From positions 1-64,000 of the forward strand of contig JALUXU010000015.1 in the NCBI GenBank assembly GCA_027013225.1: a stretch of 64,000 bases of DNA, given 5' to 3'. This DNA is from Acidihalobacter sp. (lineage in GTDB: Bacteria; Pseudomonadota; Gammaproteobacteria; DSM-5130; Acidihalobacteraceae). Positions 44,663 through 46,273 of this stretch are shown in pieces; the first letter of the stretch is position 1, and each line of letters starts with the position of its first letter. The notes under the pieces were generated by a model, which ran no database searches, was not told the origin of the DNA, and saw only the letters and a list, made by a program, of their open reading frames with translations. Both the position numbers and the translations under genes were made by a program.

Positions 44663-45064
44663 TCATTCAGGCTGATTGCGCATGTGATCGGCCAAGCCGT
44701 CGATCGCAGTGCGAATGGCGGCCCGCAGTTCAGTGTCGATTTCCTGTTCTTCAAGCGCCTGATGCATGCACATCAACCATTGATCTCGCTCACGCACACC
44801 AATGGCAAACGGTAAATGGCGCCGCCTCAGCATAGGGTGCCCATATTCCTCTACATAGAGCTGTGGCCCGCCCAGCCAGCCGGAAAGAAATTTGAACAAC
44901 TTTTCTTCCGAGCCGCGCAAATTCTGCGGATGAATCTTGCGTGTTTCCCAGACCTCAGGCATTTCGTCCATCAGTTCATAGAAACGCCTGACCAGCTTGC
45001 GCACAGCGGGCGCGCCGCCCATGAGTTCGTAAGGCGTGGGACGTGTCGTCTGTGTGGCTTCCAT
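44663..45064 (-). CDS. Group 2 truncated haemoglobin
   Basis: The 133-residue protein is a 2-over-2 globin of group II (TrHbO). It has PYELMGGAPAVRKLVRRFY with Tyr B10, the long pre-F segment LFKFLSGWLGGPQLYVEEYG, proximal His in RRRHLPFAIG and the group-specific Trp G8 in RDQWLMCMH. Members bind O2 or NO and often act in redox or NO defence. AGGAG nine bases upstream supports ATG 45064 rather than TTG 45070. It converges with zero gap on the hemerythrin gene, and a MITE-like element lies just upstream of its start. Confidence 0.92.
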   Translation of the reverse strand: MEATQTTRPTPYELMGGAPAVRKLVRRFYELMDEMPEVWETRKIHPQNLRGSEEKLFKFLSGWLGGPQLYVEEYGHPMLRRRHLPFAIGVRERDQWLMCMHQALEEQEIDTELRAAIRTAIDGLADHMRNQPE

Positions 45065-45118
45065 GGGCAAGACTCCTCATCATTCCTGTTTATAACCAAA
45101 TTCTAATATAGAAAACCA

Positions 45119-45302
45119 TTTCTTTGTCCAGGGCCCTGTCATCTAAATTCGTAAGCCGTTGAAAAGTGGAGCGGGCGTCTGCTCGCAAAACGTCGGCGGC
45201 AAGGAGGCCGCCGTCGAGCCTACAGGGATGTATTTACGGCGTTTTTCCGGGCAGAACCCGCTCCGCCACCTGGGTTAGATGACGTGGTCCTGTTTCTTTG
45301 TC
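45119..45302. mobile_element. MITE-like element with target-site duplication
   Basis: Bases 45129-45292 (164 bp) are bounded by inverted repeats CAGGGCCCTGTCATCTAA (45129-45146) and TTAGATGACGTGGTCCTG (45275-45292), which pair at 15 of 18 positions. Both sides are flanked by an identical 10-mer TTTCTTTGTC (45119-45128, 45293-45302), the expected target duplication. Subterminal repeats GGAGCGGGCGTCTGC (45168-45182) and GCAGAACCCGCTCC (45251-45264) are inverted with one indel, and a central hairpin CGGCGGC/GCCGCCG spans 45194-45213. It has no coding capacity. It sits in the divergent promoter space between the truncated haemoglobin and LpxL-type genes. Confidence 0.85.
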
Positions 45303-45370
45303 ATCTTTTCCTTGTTCCATCGTTGTCAAAGTCAATATAATCGATGGCTTGTAAATTCACTTCACTTGCC

Positions 45371-46273
45371 ATGAGCGCCTTGTCGCATCCTCGCCATTGG
45401 CCGGCCTGGGCGGCTTTCGCTTTGCTTCGTGCCGGCACGTTTCTTCCCCTGCGCTGGCAACGGGCGATCGGTGTTGCCCTCGGCGAAGGTTTTCGCCTTT
45501 TGGGAAGACGGCGTGCGAAAATCGCCCGAATCAACATAGATCTGTGTTTTCCCGAGCTCGACGAACGTGCCCGTACGGCGCTGGTGCGCAGGCATTTCCA
45601 CGCCTTCGGCATCGGCCTTTTTGAGCTCGCATTCGGGTGGTGGGCTCCTCAAAGACGCGTTCGCCCTCTGGTGCAACTGAGCGGACTTGAGCACCTGCGC
45701 GCGGCCTTGGCCAAAGGCAAGGGGGTCATTTTGCTCTCGGCGCATTTCACCACGCTCGAAATAGGCGGACGTTTTCTCGCCCTTGATGCGGAAGGTTTGC
45801 CGCTCAAGGCCATGTATCGCCCCAGCGATAATCCACTTCTGGAATGGCTGATCCGCCGCAATCGTCAACGCCAATTCGGCGACCCCATTCCGCGCGATGA
45901 CATCCGTGCTTTGCTGCGTGCGCTAAAGCGTGGCGAAGCCGTGTGGTATGCCTCGGATCAGAATTTCGGTCACAAAGGAGGCGTATTTGCTCCTTTTTTC
46001 GGTATTCCGGCGGCGACCAACACAGCTGCCAGCCGTCTTGCGTCCATGACCGGCGCCGCGGTGGTTCCTTTTTTTACACGCCGCCTTCCCGATGGGCGCT
46101 ATGAACAAATCATCGCGCCGGCATTGGAGGATTTTCCCGGCGAGAGTCCCCGGGCAGATGCCACGCGCATCAACCGGATCATCGAGGACTGGGTCAGACA
46201 GGCGCCGGAACAGTACTTTTGGACCCACCGCCGCTTTAAGGATCGCCCTGGCGACGAGCCGCGTTTCTATTGA
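45371..46273 (+). CDS. Lipid A biosynthesis acyltransferase (LpxL/HtrB family)
   Basis: LpxL-type enzymes add a secondary acyl chain to Kdo-lipid A at the inner membrane. The protein (300 aa from ATG 45371, 309 from ATG 45344) has a hydrophobic N-terminus, the catalytic H-x4-E motif in ILLSAHFTTLEIGGRFLA, the segment AMYRPSDNPLLEWLIRRNR, and the conserved WYASDQNFGHKGGVFAPFFG and late EQYFWTHRRFKDRP. It heads a rightward group of envelope genes; its TGA overlaps the ATG of the WaaQ-like gene. The MITE-like element ends 78 bp upstream. Confidence 0.93.
   Translation: MSALSHPRHWPAWAAFALLRAGTFLPLRWQRAIGVALGEGFRLLGRRRAKIARINIDLCFPELDERARTALVRRHFHAFGIGLFELAFGWWAPQRRVRPLVQLSGLEHLRAALAKGKGVILLSAHFTTLEIGGRFLALDAEGLPLKAMYRPSDNPLLEWLIRRNRQRQFGDPIPRDDIRALLRALKRGEAVWYASDQNFGHKGGVFAPFFGIPAATNTAASRLASMTGAAVVPFFTRRLPDGRYEQIIAPALEDFPGESPRADATRINRIIEDWVRQAPEQYFWTHRRFKDRPGDEPRFY

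Follow-up and report, generated by a model that had tools for sequence, protein, structure and literature searches.

The closest described counterpart of the structure analysed here is the YPAL or RU-2 repeat of Yersinia (De Gregorio 2006; Delihas 2007), an intergenic, mobile element of 168 bp with internal inverted repeats and target duplications of 3-26 bp (PMC2229807). Rfam family Ysr224 (RF02770) is modelled as a single Yersinia sRNA, and PMC9029176 ranks it with the most abundant sRNAs of bacteria. The GTAG/CGTC REPs and the REPtrons of RAYT transposases are palindromic, multicopy and mostly found near gene ends (PMC3733652), as are the repeats considered below. QMITE2 of Coxiella burnetii (PMC5896051), likened to the present element by its description, is a gammaproteobacterial MITE of 150-190 bp with a REP-like part, whose duplications, 7-11 bp long, differ in sequence. 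Finally, the binding hairpins of CsrA/RsmA, such as those of CsrB and RsmZ, present ANGGA in six-nucleotide loops, an arrangement that recurs here.

The locus studied lies in a window of 64,000 nucleotides, the whole stretch of Acidihalobacter sp. DNA that was analysed, in which a 164-bp element occupies positions 45129-45292, exactly as placed by an initial annotation (Table 1). Its ends (CAGGGCCCTGTCATCTAA, and CAGGACCACGTCATCTAA once the right end is reverse-complemented) are identical at 15 of 18 positions, and the same 10 bp, TTTCTTTGTC, flank it on both sides without a mismatch. Subterminal inverted arms, GGAGCGGGCGTCTGCTCG.. and ..CCGGGCAGAACCCGCTCC, enclose a GC-rich core, and no gene was found within the element. 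The DNA fold calculated for this stretch reaches -44.3 kcal/mol, compared with -27.1 +/- 3.1 for shuffled sequences (z = -5.5), with none of 200 shuffles folding as well. The annotation had described terminal inverted repeats, an exact duplication, subterminal inverted repeats and a gene-free, structured, GC-rich centre, all of which stand. It had also suggested altered expression of the globin and lipid A acyltransferase genes, which are transcribed divergently around the element. This is not indicated: a scan of 45000-45400 revealed no site resembling a promoter or terminator, so that an effect on the globin or lpxL gene is at most possible. In the one same-genus genome compared, the locus is rearranged and the two genes are not adjacent.

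Table 1. Coordinates of the element, its parts and the flanking genes within the window
Feature	Position	Strand	Basis
Left 10-bp target site duplication, TTTCTTTGTC	45119-45128	.	Read directly
Left terminal inverted repeat, CAGGGCCCTGTCATCTAA	45129-45146	+	End common to other copies
Inner inverted repeat, left arm (GGAGCGGGCGTCTGCTCGCAAAA)	45168-45190	+	Copy alignment and structure model
Two-hairpin conserved core	45191-45243	+	Rfam Ysr224 match on minus strand; model R1 matches
Core hairpin A, GGCGGC-AAGGAG-GCCGCC; hairpin B, CCTACAGGGATGTATTTACGGC	within 45191-45243	+	
Inner inverted repeat, right arm (..TTCCGGGCAGAACCCGCTCC)	45244-45266	+	Copy alignment; core boundary approximate
Right terminal inverted repeat, CAGGACCACGTCATCTAA, minus-strand reading	45275-45292	-	End common to other copies
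Right 10-bp target site duplication, TTTCTTTGTC	45293-45302	.	Read directly
Truncated (bacterial-like) globin	44663-45070	-	PF01152, 137.8 bits; called start 58 bp from left end of element
LpxL-type lipid A acyltransferase	45344-46273	+	PF03279, 255.5 bits; called start 41 bp from right duplication

The element is a genuine MITE, ordinary in itself: its size lies within the 70-300 bp typical of MITEs, and it is non-coding and has shared 18-bp terminal inverted repeats (TIRs) and a duplication of constant length. If it belonged to such a family, as initially proposed, a blastn search of the genome should return multiple copies with matching ends. The host assembly (G000; 2.27 Mb in 73 contigs) yielded 34 matches and, when both ends were scored, 25 TIR-bounded elements, 20 of which are full-length copies of 161-167 bp in the standard arrangement. 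A 10-bp duplication with no more than two mismatches flanks 22 of the 25 (exact in 15 cases, with one mismatch in four and two in three), and is lacking in the remaining three. The flanking 10-mers differ among all copies, which implies that there is no strong target sequence. Nothing was found to support the idea that terminal repeats and flanking 10-mers coincide by chance, or that the element is a composite of unrelated repeats. It is refuted by the different yet matching 10-mers at constant boundaries in 22 of 25 copies, and likewise in a second genome (G370, described below), so that its probability is negligible. It is very probable that the insert is a non-coding mobile element with approximately 25 copies in the host, and that it carries a core common to other Gammaproteobacteria; this level of confidence does not extend beyond the MITE and its shared core.

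Several copies depart from the standard arrangement. In two of the 22 full-length copies (C27:8701 and C57:93825) the core has the opposite orientation with respect to the ends, and internal-deletion forms of 82 and 47 bp retain both ends. A second element, some 107 bp long, is nested in a 272-bp MITE copy (L021, C24:37099-37370); its ends are GACATGATGTTTTGACC...GGTCAAAACATCATGTC, and it is flanked by a duplicated TA, the pattern left by IS630/Tc1-type elements. A 41-bp right-end fragment on the same contig (L069, C24:51986-52026) is missing its left end, yet has an 8-bp repeat, CGATGGCT, on both sides. A further locus (L066, C69:7627-8195) has a Y1 transposase gene of the IS200/IS605 type, some 190 bp away from a divergent MITE end that adjoins a degenerate core-like sequence.

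The perfect duplication had been taken as evidence of recent movement, a view that the rest of the family does not support. Private substitutions amount to 2.3% per copy (76 singletons over 20 copies of 162 sites), and the decay of the 22 duplications (10 mismatches in 220 positions) likewise corresponds to about 2.3% per copy. At this divergence around 63% of duplications are expected to be exact, as against the 68% observed (15 of 22). Exactness is hence the expected state, and the intact TTTCTTTGTC at 45119 is no sign of special recency.

The distribution of the MITE between genomes was also studied. Its end pattern was absent from the other 368 of 369 class genomes sampled, G000 being the sole carrier there, and had no match in viral contigs; the whole element was not found in 36 relatives, including a same-genus genome, nor in plasmids and phages. 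The same MITE is present in the gammaproteobacterial MAG J047 (G370; loci L195 and L246), in which there are approximately 73 ends. Copies in this genome share 87-91% identity with the host consensus; of the 18 that are bounded, 15 have a 10-bp duplication with no more than two mismatches. The sole stretch of host genes that could be aligned between the two genomes is only 67% identical, and this difference in similarity suggests lateral spread of the MITE between the G000 and J047 lineages. Also present in G370 are bounded MITE variants of 202-214 bp (L330, L331, L332 and L343) in which the core is extended by extra hairpin segments with motifs of the ATCCCTG/CAGGGAT type.

A resident autonomous parent is missing for many MITEs. 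The full-length transposon sharing the 18-bp ends and encoding a transposase, which the initial annotation had envisaged, was not found in the host: a search by end pattern located no transposase framed by two such ends in G000, where absence from an assembly of 73 contigs is no proof. Two partial copies were considered as remnants of a parent and rejected, as both are without a second matching end; judged by eye, the copy at C67:20713 continues into a transposase-like integrase frame, that at C30:62001 into an IS3-like fragment. ISAs1-family ends begin with CAGGG, and the duplications of this family are 8-10 bp long. Descent from this family, the first to which the ends had pointed, is not supported, as the ISAs1 transposase NF033564 had no match in either carrier of the MITE, G000 or G370.

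The minus strand of the element matches Rfam Ysr224 with 35.6 bits (E 6.5e-7), which falls short of the gathering score of 70, whereas the Yersinia loci L199 and L191 score 112-130 bits. The RU-2 sequence printed by Delihas (2007; PMC2759123) includes ggcgcggctcgagcctacatggatgtatttacggcg, i.e. the same core, and judging from this shared sequence and from these scores Ysr224 is the YPAL/RU-2 repeat, modelled by Rfam on the strand opposite to that bearing the GGA motifs. This suggests that Ysr224 'sRNA' counts are largely counts of repeat copies, and surveys ranking it among the most prevalent sRNAs (PMC9029176) probably count a repeat. YPAL is close in size to the host MITE, but differs from it in outer ends and arms, having neither CAGGG...GTCATCTAA ends nor terminal inverted repeats. 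Given that the duplications of YPAL vary in length while those of the host MITE are constantly 10 bp, the latter is not a YPAL, but contains a YPAL-type core. In the 5.39 million open-access papers covered, PMC2759123 is the sole one on bacterial repeats in which any of six 12-mers of the core occurs; relative to this literature YPAL/RU-2 is already known, and the presence of the core beyond Yersinia, inside an unrelated MITE, is new.

To what extent the core is shared was judged from a covariance model, R1, built from the 20 host-genome copies only. Of 229 class genomes sampled, 36 (about one sixth), the host included, have a match to the central hairpin, and the structured repeat of several gammaproteobacterial genomes to which the initial annotation had likened the centre is real. 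In these matches the core is near-invariant, spans around 53 nt, roughly CGTCGGCRGCANGGAYGCYGCCGTCGAGCCTACAGGGATGTATTYACGGCG, and comprises two hairpins. The arms around it mostly show no sequence relationship from one genome to another, and the outer ends of the repeats differ from those of the MITE as well. Both loops read C-A-N-G-G-A-Y-G; across 67 model matches the N of the first loop and the Y are free and the rest is 91-100% conserved, as are the linker CGAGC (93-99%) and, except at its Y, the bulge TTYAC (95-97%). The loops, bulge and linker are thus kept almost letter for letter, while the arms change freely in matched pairs. At least 115 loci in named genomes have the exact core pattern; this pattern was picked after the core was known, so these loci are uninformative on base conservation, and the figures above are taken from the R1 matches. 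Among the matches listed, the named loci with the exact pattern all belong to Gammaproteobacteria or unassigned Proteobacteria, with carriers including Rheinheimera, Yersinia, Methylotuvimicrobium, Marinimicrobium, Cellvibrio and Chromatiales. The core had no match in plasmids and phages. Within the host genome it is 4.7% substituted, compared with 3.7-7.0% elsewhere in the element, and the loops are not spared, a pattern that speaks for retention of the core through selection among mobile copies rather than through use by the host.

The arms behave differently from the core in that only their pairing is retained. The 19 arm pairs are 98% paired, and each has been seen as GC, CG, AU and UA. 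The covariation score of the whole structure is 0.85, compared with 0.18 when shuffled and 0.10-0.16 when slid; fitting of the alignment to the structure biases it toward pairing but not toward any Watson-Crick type. G-U pairs account for about 3% of the cells in the arms, and for less than 1% in hairpin A. Selection on an RNA should leave more G-U intermediates, and their scarcity suggests that the pairing of the arms may be maintained or renewed at the level of DNA, for instance by template switching between arms.

Among the matches listed for named genomes, core loci lie between tandem genes in 23 and 22 cases by orientation, between convergent genes in 23 and between divergent genes in 5, with 17 overlapping a frame; these counts rest on crude gene calls, and some of the loci are mutually orthologous. 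Such avoidance of divergent promoters is similar to that of REPs (PMC3733652). By contrast, the MITE copies of the host genome are placed divergently in 6 cases, convergently in 2 and in tandem in 9, with 8 apparent frame overlaps. Insertion into genes, to which these 8 cases seemed to point after flank joining, was rejected, as the readable cases are intergenic: at the typA, gltX and coq7-like genes (named from their translations) the MITE junction precedes the likely start codon, and in the case of an alpha/beta-hydrolase it falls at the extreme end of the frame. As placement in the host is unlike that of the core across the class, it seems to be governed by the targeting of the MITE rather than by the core.

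These patterns bear on what might read the core. The strongest sequence resemblance found for a core function is to CsrA binding sites, according to which the core would act as RNA, the ANGGA loops of its GGA strand would bind a CsrA/RsmA dimer, and the repeats would constitute scattered sites or sponges. The CANGGAYG form of both loops suits this reading; the sequence of hairpin B (UACAGGGAUGUA) agrees with the SELEX consensus RUACARGGAUGU, including a six-nucleotide loop with AC pairing GU, and the distance between the two GGAs, about 20 nt, is inside the reported 10-63 nt bridging range (PMC7652899). Additional GGA-bearing segments are found in the core of the G370 copies, and a YPAL-derived transcript is listed in Rfam as Ysr224. 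However, Ysr224 is on the opposite strand, the repeats have no orientation bias to neighbouring genes (23 tandem cases against 22, among the matches listed), and, unlike the hairpins of CsrB and RsmZ, the core shows no strand preference and a DNA-like covariation, its stems being almost free of G-U pairs (about 3% of arm cells, less than 1% of hairpin A). Furthermore, the loops are not spared in host-genome copies, and CsrA provides no reason for the conservation of the bulge TTYAC. Co-occurrence is uninformative, with CsrA found in 32 of 36 core carriers and 162 of 193 other genomes, and one carrier that is 98% complete (G199) has no CsrA match. Overall, binding of CsrA is an unlikely explanation of the core.

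It is similarly improbable that the core and arms form a REP-like element whose folded single strand would be recognised, and the element mobilised, by a Y1 (HUH) transposase of the RAYT type. The conserved bulge and loops would be appropriate to such an enzyme, Y1 transposases are present in 19 of 23 carriers tested, and the repeats are mostly downstream of or between genes across the class (23 convergent against 5 divergent loci, among the matches listed), as REPs are (PMC3733652). Yet of 30 Y1 loci from carrier genomes, not one has a core closer than about 1.5 kb, and four of the 23 carriers (G077, G083, G205 and G370) have no Y1 match. REPs are also only 20-40 bp long, with unpaired GTAG/CGTC tags, whereas core repeats are much longer, with two hairpins set in long arms, and no consistent end tag or adjoining Y1 transposase was seen. 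Association with a RAYT REPtron was hence rejected, Y1 genes being common in carriers but, at these 30 loci, not near cores. Nor is it probable that the core is a hairpin that terminates transcription or stabilises mRNA 3' ends, with no mobility of its own. The dominance of convergent and tandem contexts among the class-wide matches listed would be consistent with this, and the strand symmetry of a palindrome would account for the missing orientation bias; but a terminator does not need near-invariant loops, bulge and linker, no regular U-tract was seen after the arms, and many host copies are just upstream of starts, e.g. those of the typA, gltX and coq7-like genes. In view of the evidence against CsrA (orientation, covariation, loops, bulge and G199) and against RAYT, a mobility signal is favoured. 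The core may be maintained as single-stranded DNA that folds and is recognised by a putative reader enzyme, a proposal that is preferred over a CsrA-binding RNA, while being given slightly less than an even chance of being correct.

The following history can be proposed. The MITE is a non-autonomous DNA transposon, with ends CAGGG(N4)GTCATCTAA that would have been recognised by a transposase acting in trans. This enzyme would cut the target with a 10-bp stagger, and gap filling on both sides would generate the 10-bp duplication. The family spread to around 25 sites in the host, mostly beside genes, and then underwent neutral decay of about 2% per copy. The core would be an older palindromic mobile module riding in the MITE, kept as a folded single-strand signal for mobility and not for the benefit of the host, and the inversion of the core in two of the 22 full-length copies fits flipping mediated by its hairpins.

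A broader interpretation, which has to be considered doubtful when its parts are taken jointly, is that palindromic mobile repeats throughout the Gammaproteobacteria form one superfamily, defined by a single conserved core of two hairpins, of which YPAL would be only the Yersinia member. The core would then be read as a folded single strand by a mobility enzyme or by CsrA, both being candidates, and would persist while the arms are rewritten pairwise, the module entering unrelated MITEs and flipping within them. The core links repeats that have hitherto been treated as genus-specific. If CsrA reads CANGGAYG hairpins, mobile DNA scatters the binding sites of a regulator; if a transposase reads them, an unrecognised mobility system is at work.

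Two observations concern individual carriers. In the Rheinheimera-type loci L202 and L252 the core is found in opposite orientations at one intergenic place, for which either a flip or a separate insertion would account. In Yersinia pekkanenii, L199:3751-3874 has a weak match to the Vibrio RNA AS5 (38.9 bits, below the gathering score), and is possibly another repeat.
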